From positions 3,304,001-3,368,000 of the forward strand of contig NZ_CP049258.1 of NCBI RefSeq assembly GCF_011046735.1: 64,000 bases of DNA, read 5' to 3'. This document shows positions 46,907 through 63,314 of the stretch, one piece after another (position 1 is the stretch's first letter; each line of letters opens with the position of its first letter). The notes below the pieces were generated by a model. The model worked only from the letters and a program-made list of their open reading frames with translations, was not told the DNA's origin and ran no database searches. This DNA is from Nordella sp. HKS 07 (GTDB lineage Bacteria; Pseudomonadota; Alphaproteobacteria; Rhizobiales; Aestuariivirgaceae). The position numbers were made by a program, and so were the translations under genes.

Positions 46907-46915
46907 GACGGCGCC

Positions 46916-48472
46916 TCACGCGAAGAAGCCATGGACGAACCAGCGCGGCGCATCGGTCTCACGCCCATAGAGGCCTTCGCGATAGAGCCAGAAGCGCTGG
47001 CCCGCGTCATTCTCGAGGCAATAATAATCGCGGGTCGGCGCAAACACGCTGCTGCGCCACCATTCGGGCGCGATGCGTTCCGGCCCTTGCGCGGCGGCCA
47101 CGCTATGAAACTTGCCGCGCCAGCGGAATTGCCGGGGCGGCCCGTCGGGGATGAGGGCGATGACATCCGCGCGCTCCGCCTGTGGCAGAAGAAGCGTTGG
47201 TCGCGAGCGGTCCGCATCAGCTGTGGGCCAGGCGGCTTTTACGCTGTCCGCCTTGACCAGGATTTCGGCGCGTTCGGGAATATGGCTTTCGACGGGCTTG
47301 AGCTGCCGCACGCTGTCGGCGCCGAGGCGCTGGCGCAGCGCATCGAGAAGGCGCGCATGATTTTGCGCGTCTTCCTGGTGATCGCCGGACGATGCGAGAT
47401 CGCCTTGTTCGCTGTGGATGGTTTCGGCGGCGGTGACGGAGAGGCTGACGCAGTCGAAACCGAAGCCGGCTTCGAGCCCGCGCGTCTGGCCGTCGAGCTT
47501 GAGGGTGATGAGGCGGGCGATATAAGCCGGGTCGCGCGTCGGTGCGGCAAGCCCCAGATCGAGCTGGCGCATTTCGCCATCGACGCGATAGAGGCCGAGG
47601 CGCAGAGCGCGGATGCCGACGCCGTCGCGCTCGAGAGCGGGAACGAGACGTGCCACGAGTTTCCTGGCCGTGGCGACGACGATCTCCTGCGTGAAGATCG
47701 GATCGAGAAAGGAGCGTTGCGCATGATAGACGGGCGGTGGTGCGATATAATGCAAGGCCTCCGGCCGGAGACCGAAGGCCTGGTCGAGGCGAATGAGCAG
47801 CTCCTTCTCGAAGCGCGCCGCGAAGGCCGCGCGCGGCGCGTCGATGAGCATGCCGATGCGCTTGAAGCCGAGGCGGTGCAAGGCTTCATGGGTTTCGGGA
47901 CCGAGCCGCAAGGCCCTGATGGGAAGCGGGCTCAGCGCTTCTTTCTCCCGCCCTTCGGCCAAGGAAAGCGGCAGAGCGGCGCCATGGTGAGAAAGCGCCC
48001 AGGCCGCGCCCGGCGTGCCGGCAATGGCGCAGCGCGCGCTGAGATGGAATTTGCCGAGACGCGTGATGAGGTCCTCGAGCAAGGCATCCTCGCCGCCGAA
48101 GAGATGCGCGGCCCCGGTGATGTCGAGAAAGAATCCGTCACCGCCATTTTCACTTCCCCAGGGCGAGACGGCGGGCGCATAACGTGTCGCCCACAGCGCC
48201 AGGCGGCGGAGTGCCTGCGCATCCTTGTCGGCCTCGAGCAAGCGGGCCTGCAGCAGGCCGCCGGCCTTGGCGCGGGCATCGCTCAAGCCCTGGCCGGCGA
48301 ACAGACCGAGCTTCTCGGCGGCCGGATTCGTGGCGGCGATGCGCGGGCCACCCGACGCCTCGATGGTCAGGACGAAAGGCCGGTCAGGCGCTATATCGCC
48401 CGACGGCCCCTGCGCTGTCAGGAAGCGCAGGACGGGCCATCGTGGCAGCCAGACGGAAACGATGCGACGCAT
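46916..48472 (-). CDS. imuB: ImuB, Y-family polymerase-like mutasome hub
   Basis: A 518-residue ImuB. N-terminal Y-family fold (RIVSVWLPRWPVLRFL, GLSDARAKAGGLLQARLLEAD, GFFLDITGAAHLFGGED). Lacking the usual polymerase acidic triad, it acts as an adaptor linking the clamp to DnaE2. The C-terminal part ends PRWFVHGFFA. It overlaps the end of imuA by 89 bases in a different frame, so the two are translated as a coupled pair. It is expected to bind ImuA and the beta clamp. Confidence 0.92.
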   Translation of the reverse strand: MRRIVSVWLPRWPVLRFLTAQGPSGDIAPDRPFVLTIEASGGPRIAATNPAAEKLGLFAGQGLSDARAKAGGLLQARLLEADKDAQALRRLALWATRYAPAVSPWGSENGGDGFFLDITGAAHLFGGEDALLEDLITRLGKFHLSARCAIAGTPGAAWALSHHGAALPLSLAEGREKEALSPLPIRALRLGPETHEALHRLGFKRIGMLIDAPRAAFAARFEKELLIRLDQAFGLRPEALHYIAPPPVYHAQRSFLDPIFTQEIVVATARKLVARLVPALERDGVGIRALRLGLYRVDGEMRQLDLGLAAPTRDPAYIARLITLKLDGQTRGLEAGFGFDCVSLSVTAAETIHSEQGDLASSGDHQEDAQNHARLLDALRQRLGADSVRQLKPVESHIPERAEILVKADSVKAAWPTADADRSRPTLLLPQAERADVIALIPDGPPRQFRWRGKFHSVAAAQGPERIAPEWWRSSVFAPTRDYYCLENDAGQRFWLYREGLYGRETDAPRWFVHGFFA

Positions 48473-49178
48473 TTACCCACTCCAACACCCACTCACCACT
48501 CGACCCATTGCGGCAGCGCTCGAGCATCACGCGCCAACACAAATCCAGAATTCCGCCCGTCGTATCGCGCCGGGCCGGGGCCGAGGCGATCCGCCAACGC
48601 GTCTCGGCCGCGCTCGCGGCACCCGATCCAGGCGGCCGCAGTAGCAAAAGCGGCCGCTTCGCCTCGCGCGCGGCAAGGCTGAGGCGCTGGCTCGTCTTGA
48701 GATCGAAATTCTGCGCCAGGAGTCCGAGCGTCACCGGGGCTGCGCCTGAGCGCAGGGTCTCCTCGATCGCCCAGAAAGCATCCTTGTCGTTGCGCGCCTC
48801 GACAAGAGTGACGCGACCGGGATCGAGTCCGAGCGCGTTCAGGCCATGACCATGAAGCCGGCCGGCGGAGGCAAGGCTCTGCGCCGAACCGATGACGAAG
48901 ACCGGCTCTGAGGAACTGAGCGAGATCGTGAGTGCCACGAGAAAGCCGAAAGCCGCCGGCAGGTCTTCCGGTGTCGCGGCATGGATCTCATGCAGGCTTT
49001 CGAGCGAGAGGCCTTGCCGGGGCAGATATTTGTCGAGCGGCAGCTCGAAGGAGAAGAACCGGCTTTTAGCCGAACGGCCGAGAGGCGGGGCGAGAAGCCG
49101 GCGCAATTCCTCCAGGCTGGCAGGCTTTGCGGGCCGCCGCCGGGCAGGCTGAGGAGGGATCGCCGGGACAAATTCCAT
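48384..49178 (-). CDS. imuA: ImuA, mutasome accessory protein
   Basis: A 264-residue RecA-related protein (SulA-like ImuA group). Residues 40-190 look like the RecA-fold: LHEIHAATPEDLPAAFGFLV, PVFVIGSAQSLASAGRLHG, VTLVEARNDKDAFWAIEETL, LLAQNFDLKTSQRLSLAAREAKRPLLLLR. It lacks a clear Walker A motif. It is the first gene of imuA-imuB-dnaE2, and its ATG at 49178 lies 13 bases after a LexA box. It takes part in damage-induced mutagenesis. Confidence 0.9.
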   Translation of the reverse strand: MEFVPAIPPQPARRRPAKPASLEELRRLLAPPLGRSAKSRFFSFELPLDKYLPRQGLSLESLHEIHAATPEDLPAAFGFLVALTISLSSSEPVFVIGSAQSLASAGRLHGHGLNALGLDPGRVTLVEARNDKDAFWAIEETLRSGAAPVTLGLLAQNFDLKTSQRLSLAAREAKRPLLLLRPPGSGAASAAETRWRIASAPARRDTTGGILDLCWRVMLERCRNGSSGEWVLEWVNASHRFRLAATMARPALPDSAGAVGRYSA

Positions 49179-49280: not shown

Positions 49281-50225
49281 TCACTCCTGCGGATCCCGCG
49301 CCCGCATCAGGGGCGTGGGGTCGGTCGCGGGCGTCGGGATGGCGACGCCGATGCGGGCGAGCGTATAGCGCACGCGGCGCAGCGCCTCCCGGGCTTTGGC
49401 GCCGAGCTTCACCGCGACGCCGGCGGCGATCGTGTCGATCACGGCCAGATGCGCATAGCGCGACGGCGTCGGCACCAGCACATTGTCGCCCTCGGCGATG
49501 GTGATCGCGATGACGATATCGGCGGCTTTGGCGAGCGGCGTTCCCGGCCGCGTCAGCGCGATGGTGCGGGCGCCGAAGGAGCGGGCGATCTCGATCGCCT
49601 CGATCACCGGCTTCGTGCGGCCGCTGTTGGAGATCGCGAATGCCGTGTCGCCGGGTTTCAGCGTCGCCGCCGACATGCGCTGCTGATGCCCGTCGCTATA
49701 GGCGGAGACCGCGAGCCCCAAGCGGAATAACCGCAGTTTCGCATCCTCGATCATGGCGGCCGAGCCGCCCCCTTGGCCATAGATATCGATCCGCCGGCTT
49801 TCCGCCAAAGCCGCGATCGCCTGGCCGATCGTCTTCGTGTCGAGCTGGTCGAGACATTCGCGCACCGAGCCCGCCGCGCGCATCATGATCGTCTGGGCGA
49901 GCTGGCCGATATCATCGTTGAAGGCGCGGTCCGATTTGAGATAGGCCGACGCCACGGTGAGCGTGGTCGCCAGCCTGATCTTGAATTCGGCGAAGGACCC
50001 GCAGCCGACCGAGCGGCAGAAGCGGGTGACGGTGGGCTGGCTCACTTTCGCCTTCCTGGCGAGATCGGCGATCGTCATGCGGGTGGCGGCTTCGTAGTCG
50101 CGCCCGACGATCGCCGCGACGCGGCGCTCCGACGGGGACAAATCGCTTTCTATACGCTCGATGCGCGAGACGATGTCGATCGCCGGTGGCTGCTCGCCTG
50201 AATTCTCGCTGCGTCGCCGCGCCAT
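49281..50225 (-). CDS. RpiR family transcriptional regulator (HTH plus SIS domain)
   Basis: A 314-residue regulator. The HTH_6 domain covers residues 20-95 (RIESDLSPSERRVAAIVGRDYE, MTIADLARKAKVSQPTVTRFCRSVGC). The C-terminal SIS domain (RRIDIYGQGGGSAAMIEDAKL, GDTAFAISNSGRTKPVIEAIE, ALTRPGTPLAKAADIVIAI) should bind a phosphosugar. It is divergent from the transport and dehydrogenase operon at 50439-58081 and is its probable regulator. AGGA is 8 bases before the start. Confidence 0.9.
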   Translation of the reverse strand: MARRRSENSGEQPPAIDIVSRIERIESDLSPSERRVAAIVGRDYEAATRMTIADLARKAKVSQPTVTRFCRSVGCGSFAEFKIRLATTLTVASAYLKSDRAFNDDIGQLAQTIMMRAAGSVRECLDQLDTKTIGQAIAALAESRRIDIYGQGGGSAAMIEDAKLRLFRLGLAVSAYSDGHQQRMSAATLKPGDTAFAISNSGRTKPVIEAIEIARSFGARTIALTRPGTPLAKAADIVIAITIAEGDNVLVPTPSRYAHLAVIDTIAAGVAVKLGAKAREALRRVRYTLARIGVAIPTPATDPTPLMRARDPQE

Positions 50226-50253
50226 TTCCTGTCCTGTGGCCCCGGTCTGTTTC

Positions 50254-50266
50254 GTAAATAAATTAC
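50254..50266. promoter_or_regulatory. Candidate RpiR operator 1
   Basis: GTAAATAAATTAC is an inverted repeat (GTAA-N5-TTAC), close in form to RpiR/HexR-type sites. It is 29 bases upstream of the RpiR start, where it could give autoregulation. Confidence 0.45.
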
Positions 50267-50373
50267 AGGCTTTTGACCATCGAGCAAGCGATCACCTCGT
50301 AGCGGCGCAATTTTACTCGCTTCCTCACCACGGGTCGGCTAATGCGTGCCACTAGGCTATTGCAGACTCTGAA

Positions 50374-50398
50374 ATTTTGTAACATGATTTGACAAAAT
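50374..50398. promoter_or_regulatory. Candidate RpiR operator 2
   Basis: A perfect 7-bp inverted repeat, ATTTTGT at 50374-50380 and ACAAAAT at 50392-50398, spaced by 11 bases. It is 40 bases before the first gene of the operon. The centre-to-centre distance suits a dimeric regulator. Confidence 0.5.
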
Positions 50399-50406
50399 AG
50401 AAAAAG

Positions 50407-50426
50407 CGACGACACGATTGTCGTCG
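50407..50426 (+). promoter_or_regulatory. Short hairpin in 5' leader
   Basis: CGACGACA pairs with TGTCGTCG around a 4-base loop, 13 bases before the ABC ATPase start. It may affect translation of the first gene or be a third operator. Confidence 0.4.
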
Positions 50427-50438
50427 AGGGCCGGAAAC

Positions 50439-51269
50439 ATGATGGATGCGACGCCTATGCGCAGCGTACCCAGCGCTTCGGACAAGACAGCGCCCAAGAT
50501 GGTCATTGCGGGCGCCACAAAATATTACCAGACCCGCACCGGCGCGGTGCATGCGCTCGACAATGTGTCGCTCGATGTACGAGACGGCGAGTTCCTCTGC
50601 ATATTGGGGCCTTCGGGCTGCGGAAAATCGACCCTGCTCTGGTCGATGGGCGGCCTGCACGAACTGACCAGCGGCGAAATCAGGTTCGGGCATGAGAAGA
50701 TCACCAAGCCGCATCCTGAGATCGCCATGATCTTCCAGGACGCCAATCTTCTCCCCTGGCGCAATCTTGCCGCCAATATCGCTCTGCCCTTCGAGCTCAA
50801 GCGCAAGCCACCCGATCAGGCGCGTATCAACAAGCTGCTCGAACGCGTCAATCTGAAAGGATTCGAGACGAAGTTCCCGCGCGAATTGTCGGGCGGCATG
50901 CAGCAGCGCGCCTCCATCGTGCGCAGCCTGTCGGTCGACCCGTCGCTGCTTCTGATGGACGAGCCGTTCGGCGCGCTTGACGCCTTCACCCGCGACGAGA
51001 TGAACCTGCTCATCCAGGAAATCTGGATGGAGACCGGCAAGACCATCGCCTTCGTCACCCATTCCATTTCGGAAGCGATCTTCCTGGCCGACCGCGTCGC
51101 CGTCATGTCGGCAAGGCCCGGGCGTATCGCCACCATCTTCGACATCGACATACCGCGCCCGCGTCCGGTCGAGATCCAGACGCGGCCGGATTTCATCGAA
51201 CGCGTATTGCATATCAAGGCGAGCATCGATCACGGTCGCAGCCCCAGTGAAGGGCTGGCGATCACTTAG
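50439..51269 (+). CDS. ABC transporter ATP-binding protein, NitT/TauT type
   Basis: A 276-residue ATPase of the nitrate/sulfonate/taurine subfamily. Walker A GPSGCGKS, a Q-loop in MIFQDANLLPW, signature LSGGMQQRASIVRSL, Walker B LLLMDEPFGALD. This is the Ssu/Tau-like set. It starts at ATG 50439 (another in-frame ATG follows at once). First of three transporter genes. The substrate is not a safe guess; context suggests a sugar-related compound rather than sulfonate. Confidence 0.88.
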   Translation: MMDATPMRSVPSASDKTAPKMVIAGATKYYQTRTGAVHALDNVSLDVRDGEFLCILGPSGCGKSTLLWSMGGLHELTSGEIRFGHEKITKPHPEIAMIFQDANLLPWRNLAANIALPFELKRKPPDQARINKLLERVNLKGFETKFPRELSGGMQQRASIVRSLSVDPSLLLMDEPFGALDAFTRDEMNLLIQEIWMETGKTIAFVTHSISEAIFLADRVAVMSARPGRIATIFDIDIPRPRPVEIQTRPDFIERVLHIKASIDHGRSPSEGLAIT

Positions 51270-51315
51270 AGCACATCCCGCCAAAACTACAGACTTTGGC
51301 AATAAGGATTGCTCC
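51268..51315. repeat. Palindromic repeat, family C (short)
   Basis: AGAGCACATCCCGCCAAAAC ... GACTTTGGCAATAAGGATTGCTCC is a degenerate relative of the unit duplicated at 25427-25648. It lies inside the transport operon, between ATPase and permease. Confidence 0.6.
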
Positions 51316-51363
51316 AAGACAATTCGGAAACGATCGGGACATCGCTCAAGGGAGGAATAAGAG

Positions 51364-52215
51364 GTGGACAAGGCGCTGGGCGACAAGATTCCGGAATTCA
51401 ACCGGAAGAAGGCCGGCGGAGGCGGCGACGGTGTCGGCCTGTCGGGCGCGTCCCTGGGCCTCGGCGATCACCGCACCAAGGTCGAGACCCTGGTCATCAT
51501 CCTGGTGGCGGTGGTGATCATCGGCGGCGCCGAGTTCCTGCTCAAATGGTTCAATGTGCCACAATATGTGCTGCCCACGCCGAGCCTGATCGTCACGGCG
51601 CTGTTCACCGAGTGGAAATTCATCCAGTGGCATCTCTTCATCACGCTCTATGAACTATTGACGGGATTCGCCATCGGCGCCTCGATCGGCTTCATCCTTG
51701 CCGCCGTCATCACCCAGTTTCCCTTCGTCGAGAAGATCGTCACGCCTTACATATTGCTGCTGGTCACGACACCGATGCTGGCGCTGGTGCCGCTCCTCAT
51801 TCTCAAGCTCGGCTTCGGCAGCGAGCCGCGCATCATCGCGGTGGCGCTTGCTTCCGGCCCGATGGTGATGATCAATTCGGCGACCGGTTTCCGGCGCGTC
51901 GATCTCGCCAAGATCGCGCTTGCCCGCTCCTTCGGCGCCTCGACCTTCCAGATCTTCACCAAGATCCGCATACCCATGGCGATGCCGATGATCATCGTCG
52001 GTCTCATGGTCGGTTCGATCTTTGGTCTCTTGACCACGGTGGGCGCCGAGATGGTGGGGGGTGCGGAAGGCCTCGGCAACCGCCTCACTTATTACTCGGC
52101 CCTGATCCGCATGCCGCAATTCTTCGCCATCATCCTCATCCTGGCCATCATCGGCATATCGATCTACGTGCTTTTTTACTGGATCGGCAAGAAATGGGCG
52201 AGCTGGGAGGCGTAA
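51364..52215 (+). CDS. ABC transporter permease, NitT/TauT type
   Basis: A 283-residue permease with a long polar N-terminus and six segments (TLVIILVAVVIIGGAEFLL, LLTGFAIGASIGFILAAVI, YILLLVTTPMLALVPLLIL, IGISIYVLFYWI). The coupling loop reads IALARSFGASTFQIFTKIRIPMAMP. It starts at GTG 51364, with GGAGGA 7 bases upstream. It works with the ATPase before it and the binding protein after it. Confidence 0.88.
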   Translation: MDKALGDKIPEFNRKKAGGGGDGVGLSGASLGLGDHRTKVETLVIILVAVVIIGGAEFLLKWFNVPQYVLPTPSLIVTALFTEWKFIQWHLFITLYELLTGFAIGASIGFILAAVITQFPFVEKIVTPYILLLVTTPMLALVPLLILKLGFGSEPRIIAVALASGPMVMINSATGFRRVDLAKIALARSFGASTFQIFTKIRIPMAMPMIIVGLMVGSIFGLLTTVGAEMVGGAEGLGNRLTYYSALIRMPQFFAIILILAIIGISIYVLFYWIGKKWASWEA

Positions 52216-52294
52216 ACGGAGAGCTCGGACTCAAAACAAGAAAGAGAAGTGCGTGACCGGATAACACGACAGCACATAACGGAGGAAACCAGAC

Positions 52295-53416
52295 ATGACT
52301 CGCATGATGATTGGACGGCGCCGCCTGCTGAGCCTGACCGCCGCGGGCGTTTCGGTCGCGGCCTTGGGCGGCCTGGGTGCCCGCAAGGCCCATGCGGCGG
52401 ATACGGTGCGCTGGGTCTCGCCGCGCGGCACCATCGAAGTACTCGACGACTATCCCTATTGGGTCGGCAAGAAATACGGCTATTTCGGCGATATCGAAAC
52501 GACGCTTGAGCCCGGTCCGTCCGACGCGACGGCCTGCGTCAAGCTCGTCGATCAGAACCAGGCCGATATGGGTTATCCCTCACCCGGCGTGTTCTCGCTG
52601 GGCCTGGCGCAGGGCATTCCGCTGGTCTCGGTCTTCCATATGGGCGGCGCCGATGTGTTCGACTTCGCCTTCCGCAAGGGCGAGAAGCCGGCCGACATCA
52701 AAGGCATCGAAGGCAAGACGATCGTGCTGGGTTCCGCCGGCTGGCAATCGATCTGCGATCCCATGCTCAAGGCGGCGGGCGTCGACATTTCCAAGGTGAA
52801 ATATGTCGATGGCGGCTGGCCGGCCTGGGGCACCGTCCTTTCGCAGGGCAATGGCGACGCGGCTCTGTCCTGGGAAGGCTGGCGCGCCCAGTGGAAAGGC
52901 CAGGGACTCGATTTCGACTATTTCCTCGGCCGCAATTTCTCCAAGCTGCCGGCCAACAGCTTCGTCATCCGCAAGGCGGATTTCGAGGATGCGGCGAAGA
53001 AGGACCTCTATGCCCGCTATCTCCAGGGCTGGGCAGCCGGCCTCGAATACGGGCGCCAGAATCCGCGCGCCGCGACGCAGATCGTTATGGAGCAGTTCCC
53101 GGGATTGTCCTCGCAGATGAATCCCTCCGTCGCGACGGAGTCCATGATGCAACTCGCCAATGTCTTCGCCGGCCGCTGGGACGAGCGCAAGAAATGGGGC
53201 TACCACATTCCGGAAAGCTGGCAGCTTTTCTTCGATACGGCGAAGGAGATCGGCCAGATCCAGGGCGACATCAAGGTCGCCGATGTGGTCAAGAACGATC
53301 TCGTCGACGCTGCCAACTCCTTCGATGCAGCCAAGGTCAAGGCCGATGCCGAAGGCTTTGCGCTCTCCGACGACTACAAGAAGGTGGATGTCGAGGCGAT
53401 CAAGGCTAATCTCTAG
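52295..53416 (+). CDS. ABC transporter substrate-binding protein, SsuA/THI5-like, Tat-exported
   Basis: A 373-residue binding protein. Tat signal (GRRRLLSLTAAGVSVAALGG) cleaved near AHA-AD. The mature protein opens VRWVSPRGTIEVLDDYPYW and follows the NMT1/THI5-like fold (VKLVDQNQADMGYPSPGVF, IEGKTIVLGSAGWQSI). It starts at ATG 52295 after GGAGGA. The ligand cannot be assigned. It is followed by a palindromic repeat that may reduce transcription of the catabolic genes. Confidence 0.87.
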   Translation: MTRMMIGRRRLLSLTAAGVSVAALGGLGARKAHAADTVRWVSPRGTIEVLDDYPYWVGKKYGYFGDIETTLEPGPSDATACVKLVDQNQADMGYPSPGVFSLGLAQGIPLVSVFHMGGADVFDFAFRKGEKPADIKGIEGKTIVLGSAGWQSICDPMLKAAGVDISKVKYVDGGWPAWGTVLSQGNGDAALSWEGWRAQWKGQGLDFDYFLGRNFSKLPANSFVIRKADFEDAAKKDLYARYLQGWAAGLEYGRQNPRAATQIVMEQFPGLSSQMNPSVATESMMQLANVFAGRWDERKKWGYHIPESWQLFFDTAKEIGQIQGDIKVADVVKNDLVDAANSFDAAKVKADAEGFALSDDYKKVDVEAIKANL

Positions 53417-53418
53417 AA

Positions 53419-53542
53419 GCATCGGACCGAAAAGCTTGTGGTCGGGCTTGACCCGGCCATGCGAAGCGGTTTTCGGATAATCCGATGCGCAAAACAAAGA
53501 AATAGAGCGCCGCGACGATTCCGTCTGAACGTCCGGCGCTCT
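53419..53542. repeat. Rhizobial palindromic repeat, families A and P (inverted)
   Basis: GCATCGGACCGAAAAGCTTG pairs with CGGTTTTCGGATAATCCGATGC; then AGAGCGCCGCGACG pairs with CGTCCGGCGCTCT. Same elements as 9793-9891 in the opposite orientation and order. Located inside the operon. Confidence 0.8.
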
Positions 53543-53612
53543 TGAAGACAAGCGGCGGCGGCCTTGATCGGCCGCCGCCAGCTTCATTCCTTCCATCCGG
53601 AGAACGGGGCCC

Positions 53613-53948
53613 ATGTTCGTCTTTGATCATGTCGGCATCACAACCACCATTCCCCAGCCCGACGAGAACTGGGTGGAGCAGAGCCGTGTGTGGGTGACCA
53701 ATCCGCGCAATCACCCTGAGCATATCGAGTTCCTGCGCTATGCGGAGGGGACGACCGTGCCCGATGTCGTGCGCAATAATCCGCATATCGCCTTCCGGGT
53801 TGCCGCGCTGGCGCCTCACATCGAAGGGCAGGAGATCCTGATCCCGCCCTTCATCGTCGGCGACTTCCTGGAAGTCGTGTTCATCCGCAAGCACAACACC
53901 GTCTTCGAATACATGCATTATCTCAAAGAAGGCTGGTTCGGGACCTAA
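53613..53948 (+). CDS. Small VOC (glyoxalase-like) protein
   Basis: A 111-residue protein that opens FDHVGITTTIPQPDE, as in vicinal-oxygen-chelate proteins, and continues HIEFLRYAEGTTVPDVVRNN, PHIAFRVAALAPHIEG and FIVGDFLEVVFI. One VOC module; it would act as a dimer that binds a metal. It is the first catabolic gene after the transporter. It may be an isomerase or epimerase for the imported compound. Specific function unknown. Confidence 0.65.
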   Translation: MFVFDHVGITTTIPQPDENWVEQSRVWVTNPRNHPEHIEFLRYAEGTTVPDVVRNNPHIAFRVAALAPHIEGQEILIPPFIVGDFLEVVFIRKHNTVFEYMHYLKEGWFGT

Positions 53949-53983
53949 CCCTTGCCGCGCCCCACATCCGGACAATCCGCTTC

Positions 53984-55171
53984 ATGAGCTACAGGGCCAT
54001 CTACACCTATGCCTGGGATCTCGCCGAGGAAGGTGTCGGCAAAGCCGCCGACCAGTTCCTGAAGCTCGGTCTCGACACGGTGACCATCGCCGGCAGCTAT
54101 CATGCCGGCAAGTTCCTCAGGCCGCATGGACGCTCGGGCAAGGTCTATTTTCCCGAGGACGGCACGGTCTATTTCCGTGCGGATCATGCCCGCTATGGCG
54201 CGATCAAGCCGATTGCGAATGCGATGCTGAAGGAGCGCGATGTCCTGCGCGAGCTGGTTGACGCCGGCCGGATGGCGGTCAATGTCTGGCTGGTGCTGCT
54301 GCACAATACGCCGCTTGGCAGCGCGCACCCCGAAGCCGCGGTCACCAATGCCTTCGGCGACAAATACATTTACAACCTTTGTCCCTCGGCCCCCGCTTCA
54401 CGCGCATATGCACTGGGCCTCGCAAAGGATGTGACCGAAAGCTACGGCGTTTCGGGGATATCGGTCGAGGCAGCCGGCTTCCTCCCCTATGCGCATGGTT
54501 ATCACCATGAATTCGCGCTCAACGCGTCCAACCGCTGGCTCGACGGCATGCTGGGCCTGTGTTTCTGCGATCACTGCGTGAAGGGTGCCGAGAAGGCGGG
54601 GATCGACGCGGCGCGATTGAAGGCGCAGGTCGCACGTGATGTAAGCGACTATCTGGCGAGTGACGTCGATTTTCCAGCCGACATGGCGGAGGCTTTCTGG
54701 CATGCCGATATGTTCGGCGACAACGGATTGGTCGAGTTTCTGCATTGGCGCATGAGCGTCGTGACATCGCTCATCACCGAGATCCGCGCCAGCGTGCGCA
54801 AGGACGTCAAAGTCGCGATCATTCCTTCGGTGGCGCGCCCGACCGGAGGCACCTGGTATGAAGGCAGCGATCTCAAGGCTCAGGCGGAGGCGGCCGGCAT
54901 CATCGAGGCCTGTTTCTATGAGCCGGGTGCGGCGCGCGTGAAGGCCGATCTCTTCGATGTGCAGCGACGGTTGCGCGGCAAGGGCAGGCTGCGCGGCATC
55001 CTGCGGCCGGCCTATCCGGATCTAGCCGAGGAGGCGGAATTCCTGGCCGCCGTCGAGGCGCTCGTCGCAGGCGGCGTCACCGAGCTCGCCTTCTACAACT
55101 GGGGTCATTTACGGCAAGCAAATATGGAGAGGATCGCCAAGGCCATGAGAATTCTGGATCAGCGGGCATGA
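53984..55171 (+). CDS. Uncharacterised TIM-barrel-like protein, possible glycoside hydrolase
   Basis: A 395-residue cytoplasmic protein with no signal peptide. Alternating strands and helices suggest a (beta/alpha)8 barrel: AIYTYAWDLAEEGVGKAADQFL, TVTIAGSYHAGKFLR, MAVNVWLVLLH, GISVEAAGFLPYAHGYHHEF, KVAIIPSVARPTGGTWYEG and ELAFYNWGHL. A CxxC-like pair (FCDHCVKG) is present. E in SVEAAGF is a candidate catalytic acid. I do not recognise the family. It is coupled to the SDR gene (stop and start overlap). It probably acts on the transported substrate. Confidence 0.6.
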   Translation: MSYRAIYTYAWDLAEEGVGKAADQFLKLGLDTVTIAGSYHAGKFLRPHGRSGKVYFPEDGTVYFRADHARYGAIKPIANAMLKERDVLRELVDAGRMAVNVWLVLLHNTPLGSAHPEAAVTNAFGDKYIYNLCPSAPASRAYALGLAKDVTESYGVSGISVEAAGFLPYAHGYHHEFALNASNRWLDGMLGLCFCDHCVKGAEKAGIDAARLKAQVARDVSDYLASDVDFPADMAEAFWHADMFGDNGLVEFLHWRMSVVTSLITEIRASVRKDVKVAIIPSVARPTGGTWYEGSDLKAQAEAAGIIEACFYEPGAARVKADLFDVQRRLRGKGRLRGILRPAYPDLAEEAEFLAAVEALVAGGVTELAFYNWGHLRQANMERIAKAMRILDQRA

Positions 55172-55953
55172 GCTTCAAGGGAAAAATCGTCGCCGTCACC
55201 GGGGCGGCGGGCGGAATAGGCCAGGCGGTCTGCCGCTACTTCGCGAACGAGGGTGCCGCGATCGCCGCCATCGACAAGAAGGCGACCGTCACATCCTTCG
55301 CCGATGAGCTGAAGCGCGAGGGAGTTAAGACAGCGCATGCGGTCGCCGATATCGGCGATGCCGCTTCCGTGGCCAAGGCCTTTGCCAAGCTTGCTGCGGA
55401 GCTCGGCCCGGTGGACATCCTCATCAACAATGCCGGTTACTCCGATCATCCGACGCTGGCGCGGACCGATCCCGCCGGCTGGCAGGCCGATATGAACGGC
55501 AATCTCAACGGCGCCTATAATTGCGCCTTTGCCGTCCTGCCCGCCATGCAGGAGAAACGCCAGGGCTCGATCATCGCGGTGGGGTCCGTCAACGGGCTTT
55601 CGGCGCTGGGCGATCCGGCCTATAGCGCCGCCAAAGCCGGCATGATCTCGCTCACCAGATCGCTGGCGCTCGAATATGGCCGCTTCGGCATCCGCTCCAA
55701 TATCGTATTGCCGGCAACGGTGCGCACGCCGCTTTGGGACGAACGGGCGAAGAAGGACCCGCAGGTCCTGGCGACGCTCACGCGCTGGTATCCGCTGGGA
55801 CGGATTGTCGAACCCAGCGACGTCGCGCATGTCATCGGCTTTCTTGCGTCCGACGCGGCGGCCGCCATCACCGGCGTGGCGCTGCCTGTCGATTGCGGTC
55901 TGACGGCCGGCAATATCGTGATGACCCGTGAATTGACGCTCGAGGATTTCTAG
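55168..55953 (+). CDS. Short-chain dehydrogenase/reductase (SDR)
   Basis: A 261-residue classical SDR. Cofactor motif VTGAAGGIG, NNAGY, catalytic Ser in VGSVNG, and YSAAK with the catalytic Tyr and Lys. The acidic residue after the second strand (AAIDKKA) favours NAD over NADP. It should oxidise or reduce a secondary alcohol in the pathway. The start overlaps the stop of the TIM-barrel gene. Confidence 0.88.
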   Translation: MSFKGKIVAVTGAAGGIGQAVCRYFANEGAAIAAIDKKATVTSFADELKREGVKTAHAVADIGDAASVAKAFAKLAAELGPVDILINNAGYSDHPTLARTDPAGWQADMNGNLNGAYNCAFAVLPAMQEKRQGSIIAVGSVNGLSALGDPAYSAAKAGMISLTRSLALEYGRFGIRSNIVLPATVRTPLWDERAKKDPQVLATLTRWYPLGRIVEPSDVAHVIGFLASDAAAAITGVALPVDCGLTAGNIVMTRELTLEDF

Positions 55954-56000
55954 AGCGCTTCCCGCCAAAGTTGCTCGACTTCGGCGTAAGGAAGCGCTCC
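55952..56000. repeat. Palindromic repeat, family C (short)
   Basis: AGAGCGCTTCCCGCCAAAG ... CTTCGGCGTAAGGAAGCGCTCC forms a hairpin between the SDR and the first Gfo/Idh/MocA gene. Related to 25427-25648. Confidence 0.65.
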
Positions 56001-56024
56001 ACTAAAAGGATAAAGGGCAAGCAC

Positions 56025-57032
56025 ATGGACAGATTGCGCATCGGTGTCATCGGACTGGGCTGGTTCGGCGAAATTCATTGCGACACCATTGTCGGTGTTC
56101 CCCATCTGGAGCTGGCCGCTCTGTGCACCCGCAAGCCCGACCGTCTGGCCGGGCTCGCCCAGAAATATGGCGTGAAGAAAACCTATCGCGATTACCGCGA
56201 CATGCTGGCCGATCCGGCCATCGACGCCGTGTCGATCGTCACCATGTGGGATCAGCATACCGAGCCCGCCATCGCCGCTCTCGAAGCCGGCAAGCATGTC
56301 TTCCTCGAAAAGCCGATGGCCTCGACGGTTGCCGACTGTGCGAAGATCATCGCCGCGGCGAAGCGGTCAAAGGGCATTCTTCTCGTCGGCCATATCTGCC
56401 GCTTCAATCCGCGCTACCGCATGGCGAAGCAGGCGATCGAGGCCGGCCGGATCGGCAGGATCGTGGCGATGAGCTCCAGGCGCAATATTCCCGCCGCCTG
56501 GACGCCCGAGATCCTGAACAAGATCGGACCCATCGTCGGCGACGCGATCCACGATACCGATCTCATGCTGTGGTTCACCGGCGACCGCGTCGTCAGCGCC
56601 TATGCCCAGACCGTGCATGTGCGCGGCCTCAAATTTCCCGATATCGGCCAGACCATGTATCGTTTCGCCGGCGGCGCCACGGCGACGCTCGAGACGGTCT
56701 GGTGCATGCCGGAGAAAACGCCCTTCGACATCGACGAACGCATGTCGATCATCGGCACGGAAGGCATCATCCATATCCAGGACACTTTCCCCAATCTCGG
56801 CATTGTGTCCAAGGACAAGCTGCACAGCCCCGATACGACCTATTGGCCCGAATTCGACGGCGTGCGCGGCGGGGCGCTACGTGATGAATTTGCTTATTTC
56901 GCGACTTGCGCCTTGAATGGAAAGACGCCGAGCGTGGGGCGGCCGGAAGACGCGGCCGCGGCCCTTGAAGCGACGCTGGCGGCGGAAGAATCGGCACGCA
57001 CCGGCAATGTGATCAGGATCGGAGGAAAATAG
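56025..57032 (+). CDS. Gfo/Idh/MocA family oxidoreductase, first of two
   Basis: A 335-residue NAD(P)-dependent dehydrogenase. The N-terminal Rossmann fold shows IGVIGLGWFGEIH, DAVSIVTMW and the family EKPMAST motif (Lys in EKP is catalytic). The C-terminal domain is the beta-sheet substrate part (GDAIHDTDLMLWFTGDR). The start at 56025 follows the repeat and removes 18 non-conserved residues. It is likely to oxidise a cyclitol, sugar or sugar acid. Confidence 0.88.
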   Translation: MDRLRIGVIGLGWFGEIHCDTIVGVPHLELAALCTRKPDRLAGLAQKYGVKKTYRDYRDMLADPAIDAVSIVTMWDQHTEPAIAALEAGKHVFLEKPMASTVADCAKIIAAAKRSKGILLVGHICRFNPRYRMAKQAIEAGRIGRIVAMSSRRNIPAAWTPEILNKIGPIVGDAIHDTDLMLWFTGDRVVSAYAQTVHVRGLKFPDIGQTMYRFAGGATATLETVWCMPEKTPFDIDERMSIIGTEGIIHIQDTFPNLGIVSKDKLHSPDTTYWPEFDGVRGGALRDEFAYFATCALNGKTPSVGRPEDAAAALEATLAAEESARTGNVIRIGGK

Positions 57033-57034
57033 AT

Positions 57035-58081
57035 ATGGCAAAGAAAAAAAGAGTTTTGGTGGTCGGCCTCGGCAATATGGGCATGAGCCATGCGCTGGCC
57101 TATACGCGCATTCCGGGTTTCGAGGTGGTGGGCGTGTGCGAGCGCCGCATTGCCAAGCGTAAGCTTCCCGAGGCGCTGAAGGATGCGAAGAAGTTCTCCG
57201 ATTTCGACACCGCGCTGAAAGAGCTCAAGCCCGATGTCGTGTCGATCAACACGCTGCCCGACACCCATGCCGATTTCGCCATCAAGGCGATGGAGGCGGG
57301 GGCCCATGTGTTCGTCGAGAAGCCGCTCGCCGATTCTGTCGCCAATGCCGAGAAGGTGGTCGAGACGGCCAAGCGCACCAAGCGCAAGCTGGTGATCGGC
57401 TATATTCTGCGCCATCACCCGTCCTGGATCAAATTCATCGAGATCGCGAAGAAGCTCGGCACGCCCCTGGTCTTCCGCATGAATCTCAACCAGCAGTCCA
57501 ATGGCGAGACCTGGGAATGGCACAAGCGCCTGATGGACAGCTTCCCTCCGATCGTCGATTGCGGCGTGCATTATGTCGATGTCATGTGCCAGATGACCAA
57601 GGCGAAGCCGGTCAAGGTGCATGCGATCGGCACCCGGCTCACCAACGAGGTGGCCAAGCAGAATTACGGCATGCTGCAGGTCTCCTTCGACGACGGTTCG
57701 GTCGGCTGGTACGAGGCGGGCTGGGGCCCGATGATGAGCGAGACGGCCTTCTTCGTGAAGGACGTGATCGGGCCCAAGGGCTCGGTATCGATCGTGATGG
57801 CCGAGACCGCCGGCAAGGTGAAGTCCGACGACATCAACGCCCATACCAAGACCAACCAGATCCTCTGGCATCACGCCGACATGTCGAAGCCCGATGAGCG
57901 CATCGACATGACGGACGAGCCCGATCATGACGGGTTGTGCGAGCGCGAGCAGCGCTACCTGCTCAAGGCGATCGAGGAGGATATCGACCTCACCGATCAC
58001 ATGAATGACGGGGTGAAGAGCCTCAAGATCGTCGTCGCCGCCGATCGCTCCATCCATGAGGGCCAGGTGGTCGCACTCTGA
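57035..58081 (+). CDS. Gfo/Idh/MocA family oxidoreductase, second of two
   Basis: A 348-residue paralogue 2 bases after the first. Rossmann motif LVVGLGNMGMSHA, KPDVVSINTLPDTHADF and EKPLADS. C-terminal domain with DCGVHYVDVMCQMTKA. GGAGGAAAAT precedes ATG 57035. Paired Gfo/Idh/MocA enzymes are common in inositol and rare-sugar pathways, where they can act as oxidation and reduction steps. The exact reaction is unknown. Confidence 0.88.
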   Translation: MAKKKRVLVVGLGNMGMSHALAYTRIPGFEVVGVCERRIAKRKLPEALKDAKKFSDFDTALKELKPDVVSINTLPDTHADFAIKAMEAGAHVFVEKPLADSVANAEKVVETAKRTKRKLVIGYILRHHPSWIKFIEIAKKLGTPLVFRMNLNQQSNGETWEWHKRLMDSFPPIVDCGVHYVDVMCQMTKAKPVKVHAIGTRLTNEVAKQNYGMLQVSFDDGSVGWYEAGWGPMMSETAFFVKDVIGPKGSVSIVMAETAGKVKSDDINAHTKTNQILWHHADMSKPDERIDMTDEPDHDGLCEREQRYLLKAIEEDIDLTDHMNDGVKSLKIVVAADRSIHEGQVVAL

Positions 58082-58282: not shown

Positions 58283-59328
58283 CTACAGCCAGTTGCTCTT
58301 GCGGAAGCGGTAATAGAGGATGCCGCACAGAACCAGGATCACGCCGACCACGCCGAAATAGCCATATTGCCATTTGAGCTCCGGCATGTTGTCGAAATTC
58401 ATGCCGTAGATCCCGGCGATTGCCGTCGGCACCGCGAGTATGGCGGCCCAGGCGGCGAGCTTGCGGGTGATGGCGCCCTGTTGCGCCTGGCCCATCATCA
58501 GGTTCGCTTCGAAGGCGAAGGCCAGCACTTCGCGGAGCGCATCGATGCTCTCCTGGGTGCGCCGTATGTGGTCGGTGACATCGCGGAAATGCGGCCGCAT
58601 CTCGGCATCGATCGGAATCAATTCGGTATGCTCGAGCCTGCGGCAGATATCGACCAGCGGCACGGCGGCATTGCGAAGTTTGAGCAGTTCGCGTCTCAGC
58701 GTATAGAGCCGGCGCACCTGATCGGCGCTGATCGTCTCATGCAGGACCTGTCTTCCAACTCGTCGATCTCTTCGCGCACGCTTTCCAGCACGGGCATGTA
58801 GTTGTCGACGATGAAATCGAGGATCCGGTAGAGGATGTAGTCCTCGCCATGCGACAAGAGCTTAGGGCAGGATTCGCAATGGGCGCGCACGGTGGCGTAG
58901 GTGGCGGATGCGCCATGTCGCACCGAGACGACATAACCGCGTCCGACGAAGAGATGCGTCTCGCCGAAGCCGATCTTGCCCTCGACCATCTGCGCGGTGC
59001 GCGCCACGATGAAGAGGGCGTCACCATATTCCTCGAGCTTGGGGTACTGATGCGCCTTCTCGGCATCCTCGATGGCGAGGGGATGCAGATTGAGCTGCGC
59101 GCTCACCCGGGCGAGAAGATCGCCGCTTGGCTCGAACAGGCCGATCCACACGACATGACCGGGCTTCTTGCGCCACGCGCCCGCTTCGTCGATCTCGATG
59201 TCGGTAACACGTTTGCCTTTGGCATAGACGCCGGCGGCGACGACACCGGGTTCGAGTTTGGGCGGGGCTTTGGGCGGCACCTGGTCTGGCATGACGTAAG
59301 CTCTAGCGAACGGGGCTGTCCTGGGCAA
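58283..59328 (-). pseudogene. corA: CorA-family magnesium/cobalt channel, frameshifted
   Basis: The N-terminal frame starts at ATG 59328 (a later ATG at 59292 is possible) and carries GVVAAGVYAKGKRVTDIEI, HPLAIEDAEKAHQYPKLEEYGD and YMPVLESVREEIDELEDR. The frame then breaks near 58740-58755. The continuation (HETISADQVRRLYTLRRELLKL) ends with two membrane segments, AWAAILAVPTAIAGIYGMNFDNMPE (with the GMN selectivity motif) and YFGVVGVILVLCGILYY, and stop 58283. The span of 1046 bases indicates one base missing. If the gene is whole, it encodes a Mg2+ channel of normal length. Confidence 0.85.
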
Positions 59329-59391: not shown

Positions 59392-60327
59392 TTATTTTAG
59401 CCTTTCGATGCCGCTCGAGGCTGAGCGTACGGCTTCGAGGTCGCGGCTGAAATGATCCTCGGTCTCGGTGCGTGAGACCGTCAGGTGCTGGCGCATCAGC
59501 GCCGACGCCCAGGCCGGGTCGCCGGCAAGAAGGGCGTCCAGAATGGCGACATGCTCCGTCATCGAGGCGCGGATACGTTCCAGGCGCGAATAGCTGAAGA
59601 ATTCGGCGAGTCGTCTCAGGCGGTTCTGCCGCCGGATGATGTCGGCGATGAGGTCGTTGCGGCTGCCGCGCGCCAGGACCTCGTGGAAAGTGGCGTCGAG
59701 CTCGAAGATCTCGCGCCAGGACGAGGTCTCGGAAAGCGCCGCGAGGGCGGCCTGGTGATCGGCCTTCAGCCGCTCGAGGACCGGGCGGTCGATGACATAG
59801 TCGCGGTCGATGAGCAGCGCCGGCTCCAGGATGCTGCGCAGATGATAACTCTTCAGCATCTGCTCGCCGTCGAATTTCAGCATCGTCCAGCCCTTCCCGG
59901 GGAGCGGCTCGGCGAGGCCCTCGCGCATCAGGCGGCGCAACACCTGCAGGATCTCGCCGCGCCCGGCCCCATATTGGCGCATCAACGCGCTTTCGGTGGC
60001 GGGATCGGGCATCTCATGCAGGATGATGTCGCGCAGAATGCGTCCATAGAGGCCGGCGGATTCGTCGCCGGGCGCCATGCTGTCGCTGGCGACGGGGGGT
60101 ATGAGCAGCATGGTGTAGCCGCCCAGCTCATGCGGACTAAGAACGCCTTCACCCACGAGATGCTGCAGCGCCGCGCGGATGGGGGTGCGCGACACGCCGA
60201 GCTCGCGCGACAGCACCGCCTCGCGCACGCGGATCTTTCCGCTCGGATCCTGGTTGCGGATCCACTCGCTGATCCGGCTAACGAGCTCTGACTGAAGCTC
60301 GCTCTTGAGTTTTTTGGTATTGTCCAT
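59392..60327 (-). CDS. GntR family regulator with two tandem winged helices and an FCD domain
   Basis: A 311-residue regulator. Winged helix 1 (residues 11-75) has VREAVLSRELGVSRTPIRAAL and GVLSPHELGGYTML. Winged helix 2 (residues 90-152) has the same plan: YGRILRDIILHEMPDPATES, LMRQYGAGRGEILQVLRRL, GLAEPLPGKGWTML. The FCD domain follows, with ligand or metal histidines in DATFHEVLA, EHVAILDAL and MRQHL. Most FadR-type GntR proteins have one winged helix, so this is unusual. Divergent from the polyamine-type operon, which it probably controls. Confidence 0.85.
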   Translation of the reverse strand: MDNTKKLKSELQSELVSRISEWIRNQDPSGKIRVREAVLSRELGVSRTPIRAALQHLVGEGVLSPHELGGYTMLLIPPVASDSMAPGDESAGLYGRILRDIILHEMPDPATESALMRQYGAGRGEILQVLRRLMREGLAEPLPGKGWTMLKFDGEQMLKSYHLRSILEPALLIDRDYVIDRPVLERLKADHQAALAALSETSSWREIFELDATFHEVLARGSRNDLIADIIRRQNRLRRLAEFFSYSRLERIRASMTEHVAILDALLAGDPAWASALMRQHLTVSRTETEDHFSRDLEAVRSASSGIERLK

Positions 60328-60360
60328 TTACGTACTTTACATGCAGCAAAAGACATTATA

Positions 60361-60405
60361 GCATTTCTGTATCGCAAGGAAATGCCGTTAGAAGCATTTA
60401 AATGC
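60361..60405. promoter_or_regulatory. Two GCATTT/AAATGC palindromes, candidate GntR operators
   Basis: Site 1 is GCATTTC (60361-60367) with GAAATGC (60379-60385). Site 2 is the perfect 12-bp palindrome GCATTTAAATGC (60394-60405). Both share one half-site and lie in the 100-base divergent spacer between the GntR gene and the ABC operon. Confidence 0.6.
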
Positions 60406-60428
60406 AAACAGGGAGTGGGCGCCGCGGG

Positions 60429-61544
60429 ATGAGGCAGGTCTCCGAACAAGAAGTGCTGCGCGTCGACCAGGCGCGCAAGTCCTTTCGCACCCCGGAAAGC
60501 GGCGTGGTGACACCGCTCGACGGCATCACGCTGTCGATTCGCAACAACGAATTCCTTACCCTTCTTGGGCCTTCCGGGTGCGGCAAGACCACCTTGCTCA
60601 AGACCATTGCCGGTTTCGAGGAACTGGACGAGGGCGAGATCTATCTCGAAGGTCGCGCCATGAGCCCGGTGCCGGCGCATCGCCGGCCCTTCAACACCGT
60701 ATTCCAGAACTACGCGCTGTTTCCGCATATGACGGTTGCCGGCAATGTCGGCTATGGCCTGCAGGTTGCGGGCGTTCCACGCGCCGAGGAAGCGACGCGG
60801 GTTTCCGAGATTCTGCGGCTGGTCGGCCTCGCGGGGCTCGAACGGCGCAAACCCGCTCAGCTTTCCGGCGGCCAGCAGCAGCGTGTGGCCCTGGCGCGCG
60901 CCCTCATCAACCGGCCCCGTGTGCTGCTCCTCGATGAATCGCTCTCGGCGCTTGACCGCAAGCTGCGCCAGTCCATGCAGATCGAGTTGAAAAACCTGCA
61001 GAACACCGTCGGCATCACCTTCATCTTTGTCACCCATGACCAGGAGGAGGCCCTCACCATGTCCGACCGCATCGCGGTCATGGACAAGGGCCGCATCCTG
61101 CAGCTTGGCACGCCGGCGGAGATCTATGACACGCCGGCGAACCGCTTCGTCGCGGGCTTCATCGGCACCAGCAACATCTTCACCGGTCGGCTGGCGAAGA
61201 GCGGCGGCGCCTCACATGTCGAGATCGAGGGCGGCCCGGCCATCACGGCGAGGGCGGATGGTTTCGTTTCGGGCGACAAGGTCGATGTCATGCTGCGCCC
61301 TGAGCATTTCTCGCTTCACCCGGGCAGGACCGGCCCGGGCGGCAGCCTCGAGGCGGTGATCGAGAATATCGTCTTCGTCGGGACCGATCTCCATCTGCAT
61401 GGCCGCCTCGGCAATGGCCTGCCGGTCGTGGCGCTCGAGCGTCATGCCCGGGGCACGGGTCCTCTCGATCTCGGGGCCGGCCAGACGGTCACCCTTCATT
61501 ATCAGGCGACGGCCCCGCATCTCATGAAGAGCGGGGTGACATGA
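60429..61544 (+). CDS. ABC transporter ATP-binding protein, spermidine/putrescine (PotA) type
   Basis: A 371-residue ATPase. Walker A GPSGCGKT, signature LSGGQQQRVALARAL, Walker B VLLLDESLSALD, with Ser in place of the usual Pro. It has a C-terminal TOBE domain (RPEHFSLHPGRT, IENIVFVGTDLHLHGRL). The ATG at 60402 lies inside the palindrome, so ATG 60429 is preferred. First gene of the second polyamine-type operon; its ATP half resembles the protein at 30671. Confidence 0.88.
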   Translation: MRQVSEQEVLRVDQARKSFRTPESGVVTPLDGITLSIRNNEFLTLLGPSGCGKTTLLKTIAGFEELDEGEIYLEGRAMSPVPAHRRPFNTVFQNYALFPHMTVAGNVGYGLQVAGVPRAEEATRVSEILRLVGLAGLERRKPAQLSGGQQQRVALARALINRPRVLLLDESLSALDRKLRQSMQIELKNLQNTVGITFIFVTHDQEEALTMSDRIAVMDKGRILQLGTPAEIYDTPANRFVAGFIGTSNIFTGRLAKSGGASHVEIEGGPAITARADGFVSGDKVDVMLRPEHFSLHPGRTGPGGSLEAVIENIVFVGTDLHLHGRLGNGLPVVALERHARGTGPLDLGAGQTVTLHYQATAPHLMKSGVT

Positions 61545-63296: not shown

Positions 63297-63314
63297 AAGG
63301 AAGAGGAGGAAATG

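Follow-up and report, generated by a model that had tools for sequence, protein, structure and literature searches.

What reaction is carried out by a barrel protein that lies outside the standard protein families and is encoded between an importer and a set of dehydrogenases? This question is raised by a gene unit in Nordella sp. HKS 07, found in a 64,000-nucleotide stretch (contig NZ_CP049258.1, positions 3,304,001 to 3,368,000) of a 7.18 Mb genome that consists of a single contig. The whole stretch is here called the window, and its own numbering is used. The barrel protein has 395 amino acids (53984..55171, + strand) and shares its direction with a NitT/TauT-type ATP-binding cassette (ABC) importer, a small protein resembling those of the vicinal oxygen chelate (VOC) type, a short-chain dehydrogenase/reductase (SDR) and two Gfo/Idh/MocA dehydrogenases (Gfo1 and Gfo2), opposite an RpiR-type regulator. 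The gene unit, which occurs in soil and water bacteria, is real and conserved. By its predicted fold the barrel protein is glycosidase-like, and it is most likely a divergent relative of the GHL10 family. Its neighbours in relatives indicate, with moderate confidence, the breakdown of 2-amino-sugars and not of cyclitols. The reading preferred here, which is about as apt to be right as wrong, is that the operon imports and degrades a conjugate or derivative of a 2-amino-sugar, probably N-acetylated, through oxidation at C1 without prior phosphorylation. No description of the unit was found in a search of open-licence papers in PubMed Central (PMC), and the excerpts of a haloarchaeal paper (PMC13260240) do not describe it.

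The original prediction could not place the barrel protein, and the family and sequence searches confirm this: there is no Pfam family at cut-off, no NCBIfam family at E<=1 and no match with a meaningful E-value among the PDB sequences. An AlphaFold2 model based on 36 aligned relatives (pLDDT 91.5, pTM 0.91; residues 174-177 uncertain) forms a (beta/alpha)8 barrel. Foldseek places PgaB (4p7o, 4.1e-11), the fucosidase 6tvk and GH42 enzymes at the top, and VIA-align ranks Cwp19 first (5oq3; Z 26.5, rmsd 3.0, 289 residues aligned) and PgaB second (4p7l; Z 25.1, rmsd 3.3, 314 residues). The structural matches listed are carbohydrate-active barrels, glycosidases nearly throughout. The fold search thus points to a glycosidase-like barrel closest to PgaB, Cwp19 (GHL10) and GH42, and among the matches listed it brought up no known enzyme of an unrelated substrate; the fold comes without a known substrate. 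The assignment to GHL10 is made because of the Cwp19 and PgaB matches together with a homologue, 34% identical, in locus L075, which narrowly passes the gathering score of the GHL10 profile PF02638 (28.2 vs 27.9 bits). The homologue in L119 reaches 16 bits, the one in L118 has no score, and the window protein gives no match to PF02638 at E<=1.

The residues H40, H107, N108, E162, H175 and Y312 are invariant in the 36 aligned sequences, as are H171, H174 and R341. The six first mentioned are invariant also in a set of 13 sequences with haloarchaeal members, but R341 is not. C133, C193, C195 and C198 are nearly invariant. In the model, E162 ends strand beta4 (158-162), Y312 follows beta6 and R341 follows beta7 (335-340). 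When it comes to the two glutamates typical of GH42 and clan GH-A, the one at beta4 is present as E162, while the beta7 position is taken by R341. The GHL10 proteins (PF02638; Cwp19) and the C-terminal domain of PgaB share with the barrel protein the (beta/alpha)8 fold, an acid ending beta4 and a tyrosine near the end of beta6. According to the excerpted text on Cwp19, that enzyme has an aspartate at beta4 and a tyrosine ending beta6, and has lost the usual glutamate at beta7 (PMC5765458), so that the beta7 position is without an acid in both proteins. The barrel protein differs from GHL10 in having Arg341 where a glycine is found at the beta7 position, and in a sequence that shows no apparent signal peptide, as judged by eye without a predictor. 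The GH42 beta-galactosidases are similar in fold, in the position of the beta4 acid and in a CxCxxC cluster (C193, C195, C198, with C133), but the barrel protein lacks their beta7 nucleophile, and the identity is 12-16% among the matches listed. The cysteine cluster resembles what is presumably the zinc site of GH42.

One scan of the GTDB genome contigs yielded 72 distinct loci encoding the barrel protein. Of these, 41 are of the operon type, defined by two or more of the genes for permease, binding protein, Gfo1, Gfo2 and VOC-like protein, with one Gfo or VOC-like protein above 50% identity. They hold the genes for RpiR (32), ATPase (37), permease (38), binding protein (39), VOC-like protein (34), SDR (39), Gfo1 (38) and Gfo2 (40), and several of the contigs end early. 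The gene order is either as in the window, or has Gfo2 before the barrel gene and the VOC-like gene after Gfo1, or has the transporter and Gfo2 inverted after Gfo1. That the genes make up a single catabolic unit facing the RpiR gene, as originally predicted, is supported by this conservation.

The SDR gene (55168..55953, +; PF13561, with YSAAK and GAAGGIG motifs) overlaps the barrel gene by 4 bases, and its product has 5tt0 as its best solved relative. Apart from the operon-type loci, it is found in 14 of the 31 others, in alpha-, beta- and gammaproteobacteria. In all 35 loci where both open reading frames (ORFs) were called it starts between -73 and +18 bases from the barrel stop codon, in 14 of them at exactly -4, as measured from mechanical first starts. 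The coupling of the two genes is thus kept well beyond the window, and a role of the barrel protein as a core enzyme, which the original prediction thought probable, fits with it. In a Burkholderiales locus (L077:9626-10992), two ORFs that appear to belong to the transposase of an insertion element lie between the SDR gene and that of a major facilitator superfamily (MFS) transporter.

The barrel protein is rare. A match is found in 12 of the 69 genomes in the family, though in G001 it is just a weak 85-residue hit, and in the class it is found in six of 385 sampled genomes, the genome of the window included and one (G295) being weak and partial. Among named organisms, the genome of the window is closest to Rhizobiales bacterium Y(2018), Aestuariivirga sp. 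YIM B02566 and Taklimakanibacter lacteus; in these three the barrel protein is 84-85% identical and the operon proteins 83-97%. Of 152 plasmid records that match the barrel protein 114 are from Rhizobium. Most of the Rhizobium matches listed share about 37-41% of residues with the query across roughly four fifths of its length, and they are named 'hypothetical protein'.

The neighbouring genes in relatives give the main indication of a substrate. They were named by clustering the ORFs of each locus and comparing representatives with Pfam, by which part of the ORFs were scanned. Three roles recur near the barrel gene: a deacylase, RidA, and an OngC-like pyridoxal phosphate (PLP) enzyme that contains a D-serine-dehydratase domain and is here called DSD. 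Fifty-four loci reach 18 kb or more. All three markers are present in 20 of them, two or more in 27 and one or more in 48, which leaves L009, L010, L011, L055, L057 and L060 with none. The control was a set of 41 stretches, 806,608 bases in all (21 from the genome of the window and 20 from five relatives, all within its family), searched with the same BLAST threshold; a single stretch contains a marker, a DSD, and deacylase and RidA are absent from all 41. Because the control covers this family only and the barrel loci are related to one another, the comparison is given as counts.

Two amidohydrolases are candidates for the deacylase, namely AMH3, which is D-aminoacylase/OngB-like, and AMH12, a second one of deacetylase type. 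In the 41 operon-type loci AMH3 is found in 12 and AMH12 in 22, but never together, and seven loci (four of them below 16 kb) have neither. This is the pattern expected of two deacetylases with one job. The AMH12 protein of L020 passes the NCBIfam 'amidohydrolase/deacetylase family' (384 vs 371). Near the operon a deacylase candidate is thus found in 34 of the 41 loci, DSD in 12 and RidA in nine. In L034 the genes for DSD, SDR, RidA, AMH3 and RpiR are consecutive and adjoin the operon. In the Rhizobium loci L094 and L116, RidA and a DSD-type protein are accompanied by an AstE/AspA-type hydrolase and an amidohydrolase, which in L116 is of the Amidohydro_2 family; the same set is found in Aminobacter L121, and without the AstE-type gene and RidA in Aureimonas L120. 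All three haloarchaeal records have sugar ABC transporters, and two of them also encode RidA, an SDR, an enolase-type dehydratase and a member of the creatininase family. It is these deacetylase-type hydrolases, DSD and RidA, together with a 2-keto-3-deoxygalactonokinase (DGOK) and an alpha-N-acetylgalactosaminidase-like GH31, that point to 2-amino-sugars.

The last two enzymes bear on which sugar is involved. DGOK is encoded in 10 of the 31 loci that are not of the operon type, and of these 10 a KDPG-type aldolase is found in four and a GH31 in six. The GH31 of L065 matches the alpha-N-acetylgalactosaminidase 7f7r at 3.3e-116 and the next kind of enzyme at 2.1e-57; it also matches 6m76, filed under another name, at 7.8e-117. 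These are its best solved relatives, and no such enzyme is encoded in the window operon. Five other GH31 proteins of the loci are 54-75% identical to that of L065. By their sequences these enzymes suggest galacto-configured amino-sugars in the bacteria that have GH31 and DGOK, and for the window operon this cannot simply be assumed.

In the six beta/gamma-type loci the GH31 would, by analogy, already free N-acetylgalactosamine (GalNAc), probably extracellularly. This would suit a barrel protein that is not a glycosidase but the lactonase of the pathway: the SDR would make a lactone from the free N-acetylhexosamine, and the barrel protein would open it to the aldonic acid needed by the deacetylase. 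In line with such a role, the Pfam-named neighbours in the beta-type loci, for which part of the ORFs were scanned, include no lactonase-type family, and the barrel protein has the invariant histidines H40, H107, H171, H174 and H175 and lacks the paired acids of the classical GH-A enzymes. A lactonase is still somewhat unlikely, given that the structural matches listed are glycosidases nearly throughout. Further, the protein near the barrel gene in Rhizobium L116 belongs to Amidohydro_2, a family that includes known sugar lactonases, and the six Duganella/Rugamonas-type loci (L059, L062, L064, L067, L072 and L078) encode the barrel protein and DSD without the SDR that would supply the lactone.

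The neighbour genes resemble the ong cluster for oxidative chitin catabolism in Pseudoalteromonas prydzensis (PMC9537276), where, in the excerpts of the paper, OngB deacetylates GlcNAc1A, OngC removes ammonia to give 2-keto-3-deoxygluconate (KDG), OngD belongs to the RidA proteins and OngR acts as a repressor of the RpiR type. A D-aminoacylase-like deacetylase, a PLP deaminase, RidA and an RpiR-type repressor are common to both systems, as would be the non-phosphorylated N-acetylaldonate route, the parts of which are found beside the barrel gene in relatives. The ong cluster differs in that it uses the hexosaminidase OngA, TonB and SSS transporters and KdgK, and the excerpts mention neither the barrel protein nor the SDR (PMC9537276).

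AMH3 is close to both D-aminoacylase and PpOngB. Its residues were compared in 22 of 25 proteins (those of L051, L063 and L071 lay outside the ORF cluster) at the sites given in the excerpts of PMC12017989. The metal, catalytic and carboxylate-binding residues are kept, save that Lys252 is Gln in L075 and L095. The position of AfDam Leu298 is occupied by Asp in 10 proteins (beta/gamma-type loci, L043, L044 and L095), Thr in nine, Ser in one, Arg in L074 and Ala in L075, that of Met254 by Ala in all 22, and that of Met346 by Gln in 21. OngB Ser292 corresponds to Thr in 21 and Ser in L075, and Gln298 is never Gln. Most residues at the Leu298 and Met346 sites are thus polar, in favour of the amino-sugar reading. 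A polar side chain is likely, but GlcNAc1A as such is not implied. As Ser292 and Gln298, the signature residues of OngB, are not kept, AMH3 is not identified with OngB.

AMH3 scores, however, no lower with D-aminoacylase than with PpOngB (472 vs 452 bits in L069, 504 vs 447 bits in L038). It may thus be asked if true N-acyl-D-amino acids or their conjugates are handled instead of amino-sugar acids, the barrel protein then acting on such a conjugate. The sole NCBIfam match of DSD at E<=1e-10, a 3-hydroxy-D-aspartate aldolase that is far below its cut-off (71 and 202 bits vs 690), would agree with this, and so would the amino-acid permease near the barrel gene in the Duganella/Rugamonas-type loci. 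The absence of AfDam Leu298, Met254 and Met346 from all 22 AMH3 proteins, and the carbohydrate transporters, DGOK, KDPG-type aldolase and GH31 adjoining the barrel gene, make N-acyl-D-amino acids a doubtful substrate.

Gfo1 (56025..57032, +; PF01408, EKP motif) and Gfo2 (57035..58081, +; PF01408, EKP and DCGVH motifs) are encoded with a gap of 2 bases. The start of Gfo1 is ambiguous, as the called ORF begins at TTG 55971 and there is an in-frame ATG at 56025. A D...H pattern is characteristic of Gfo dehydrogenases; it is found in Gfo2 (DCGVH) and is absent from Gfo1, short of what was expected. The best NCBIfam match of both proteins is UDP-N-acetylglucosamine (UDP-GlcNAc) 3-dehydrogenase, with 171 bits for Gfo1 and 112 for Gfo2 at a cut-off of 450. 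This agrees with an N-acetylhexosamine substrate but is no proof of it, and glycoside 3-dehydrogenase families are also among the matches.

From the two Gfo genes a cyclitol or rare-sugar pathway had originally been predicted. Gfo1 does give 169 bits to myo-inositol 2-dehydrogenase (TIGR04380), but this is less than half of the cut-off of 355, and Gfo2 gives 91. Among the matches listed no protein of the operon reaches the cut-off of an inositol-pathway family, and the neighbours are of the amino-sugar type. The cyclitol reading is thus not supported and very unlikely.

The Gfo pair could also act by oxidation and elimination: Gfo1 would oxidise C3 of an N-acetylhexosaminide, the VOC-like or the barrel protein would eliminate or hydrate, and Gfo2 would re-reduce, so that the aglycone is lost without a classical glycosidase. 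The presence of two Gfo genes in the operon (38 and 40 of the 41 loci), the 3-dehydrogenase matches and the VOC-like set of candidate metal ligands all favour this. Such a mechanism is nonetheless unlikely, as the GGHGG loop of GH109 is missing from both Gfo proteins and, of the 14 other loci with barrel protein and SDR, 12 lack a Gfo1-like gene in the DNA retrieved. Oxidation-elimination pathways use a DUF1080-type lyase; none is found among the named neighbours, and no search was aimed at such lyases.

Two candidate identities for the Gfo proteins were rejected. The NAD-dependent glycosidases GH109 and GH188 are, in the excerpts of PMC10755693, alike in their Gfo/Idh/MocA-type fold, but Gfo1 and Gfo2 keep the EKP motif and do not have the GGHGG loop. 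GH109 was rejected on the latter ground; its structure 6t2b matched Gfo2 merely at residues 6-121. Sulfoquinovose, suggested by a sulfonate-type importer combined with an NAD-dependent GH188, was given up: the EKP motif is retained in both Gfo proteins, and genes of sulfoglycolysis do not occur among the named neighbours, no search having been aimed at these genes and no comparison with GH188 made.

The 111-residue VOC-like protein (53613..53948, +) gives no Pfam glyoxalase at E<=0.1 and no NCBIfam family at E<=1e-10. Its model is poor (pLDDT 61.8) and can be interpreted for the C-terminal half alone; the top Foldseek matches among the 50 listed are VOC proteins of the HPPD type, none with E <0.014. 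VOC proteins have a beta-alpha-beta-beta-beta fold with H/E/H/E metal ligands, and the candidate ligands H6, E39, H58 and E99 are invariant in 13 aligned sequences. In L043, where the fetched DNA contains no VOC-like gene, Gfo1 is directly followed by a true member of the glyoxalase family (PF00903). The VOC name is accordingly probable, short of proven. In 16 of the 41 operon-type loci a flavin monooxygenase-like protein (FMO) of about 590 residues is also encoded near the operon (e.g., L030:526-2298 on the - strand).

All genes named in the original prediction were found in the place and orientation it gave. The importer consists of an ATPase (50418..51269, +; PF00005; TTG start at 50418, in-frame ATG at 50436), a permease (51364..52215, +; PF00528, GTG start) and an NMT1/SsuA-like binding protein (52295..53416, +; PF09084, 54.8 bits vs a cut-off of 20.5), and as these three families are all above cut-off it is of the NitT/TauT type. 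The NCBIfam families closest to the ATPase (SaoA, taurine and nitrate ATPases) and to the permease (SaoP/SsuC-like) stay below their cut-offs, and no substrate-specific equivalog was reached among the matches listed. The binding protein has one PDB relative at E<=0.001 (4nmy, 7.5e-8). Apart from the overlap and the 2-base gap mentioned above, the gaps in the operon are 35-196 bases.

The RpiR/HexR-like regulator with its SIS domain (49281..50225, -; PF01418 58 bits, PF01380 67.9 bits, both above cut-off) is divergent from the ATPase gene, with 192 bases between them. Its two domains are those of an RpiR-family repressor as in the Ong pathway, repression itself being predicted. The best NCBIfam match is the HexR subfamily (211 bits, below the cut-off of 296). 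In 13 type-A relatives, copies 65-92% identical lie opposite the same transporter. The gap contains a near-palindromic operator candidate, CGTAAATAAATTACA (50253..50267), which may be comparable to HexR sites. Similar sites are found in the same gap of L009, L010, L011, L013 and L021, the first four of which have perfect paired arms; in L031 a palindrome with a different core is found elsewhere in the gap, and the pattern was not matched in the gaps of the type-A loci L030, L034, L036, L038, L039, L040 and L042. A loose form of the pattern also matched a different core in L017, L018 and L035, and the motif has no shuffled control. The promoter scan (3 vs a mean of 2.6) and the terminator scan (8 vs a mean of 6.1) gave about as many hits as shuffled sequences.

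Just beyond the regulator gene lies what is presumably a DnaE2-ImuB-ImuA mutagenesis cassette (43700-49178, -). On the other side, a presumed CorA-like transporter (58283-59328, -) reads as two ORFs, 58283-58717 and 58696-59328, which overlap but do not share a frame, possibly because of a frameshift or an assembly error. It is followed at 59392-64000 by what appears from the ORF sequences to be a GntR/FCD-like regulator opposite a polyamine-type ABC transporter operon.

The genome of the window has a second locus of relevance, L112 (G000:C1:1706000-1722000), with RidA, a CUT1-type carbohydrate ABC transporter, SDR, RpiR and DSD (PF14031/PF01168). It resembles the beta-type barrel operons, but has no barrel gene. 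Its RidA (67-72%) and DSD (53-56%) are most similar to the operon-side copies in L017-L019, L024, L035 and L076, and its binding protein (50-53%) to those of L052, L065 and L069 and its ATPase (54-59%) to those of L063, L065, L068 and L069. The OngC-like PLP enzyme and RidA of an Ong-type pathway are thus present in this genome outside the window operon, and one DGOK is also found. With DSD and RidA at L112, and with the search for an OngB-type deacetylase negative, the pathway may here be distributed among several loci.

From the gene content, the conservation, the neighbours and the predicted fold, each reaction and the substrate can be inferred as follows. The compound would be taken up by the NitT/TauT-type transporter and modified by Gfo1, Gfo2 and the VOC-like protein, e.g., by a transient oxidation at C3. 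The GHL10-like barrel protein would then hydrolyse the bond that frees the amino-sugar (or open a lactone), and the coupled SDR would oxidise C1 to give an N-acetylaldonate. After removal of the acyl group by a deacetylase, the OngC-like PLP dehydratase and RidA would take off ammonia to leave a 2-keto-3-deoxy sugar acid, which a kinase and an aldolase would convert to pyruvate and glyceraldehyde phosphate. A sugar intermediate would be the signal for the RpiR protein. Least certain are the roles of the two Gfo proteins, the VOC-like protein, the NitT importer and the nearby monooxygenase.

Several observations weigh against this route. The catalytic acid found at beta7 in GH42 and PgaB is absent from the barrel protein. 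The six Duganella/Rugamonas-type loci have, besides the barrel protein and DSD, neither SDR nor deacetylase, and are the strongest hint that the reaction may be something other than plain glycoside cleavage. L056 and L061 have RidA only, L055, L057 and L060 no marker, and the nearest relatives L009-L011 none of the three within about 10 kb, and the control stretches were all drawn from the family of the window. An OngB-type deacetylase was not found in the window's genome at E<=0.001 with AMH3 of L038 as query; the sole candidate is an AMH12-like protein 45% identical to that of L020, which makes the deacetylation step uncertain there. AMH3 of L038 scores higher with D-aminoacylase than with PpOngB, AfDam Phe191 is retained in 18 of the 22 AMH3 proteins and both OngB signature residues are missing in 21. 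Finally, the Gfo pair, the VOC-like protein, FMO and the NitT transporter are not named for ong in the excerpts of PMC9537276.

A wider proposal, possible but held only tentatively, is that the barrel protein founds an undescribed glycosidase or lactonase family heading an undescribed oxidative pathway of the GalNAc type, leading from GalNAc through N-acetylgalactosaminate and galactosaminate to 2-keto-3-deoxygalactonate. The pathway would be found in alpha-, beta- and gammaproteobacteria, with a variant in haloarchaea, and the Hyphomicrobiales operon would be a branch adapted to an amino-sugar conjugate by the two Gfo proteins, the VOC-like protein and the NitT importer. GH31, DGOK, AMH3 and the SDR would give four starting points for a search for the substrate. 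If the amino-sugar reading is right, the phosphate-free, D-amino-acid-like route of oxidised chitin would be extended to other amino-sugars, a glycosidase-like barrel without the usual acid pair would gain a testable function, and a family annotated as 'hypothetical protein' on many Rhizobium plasmids would be given a role.

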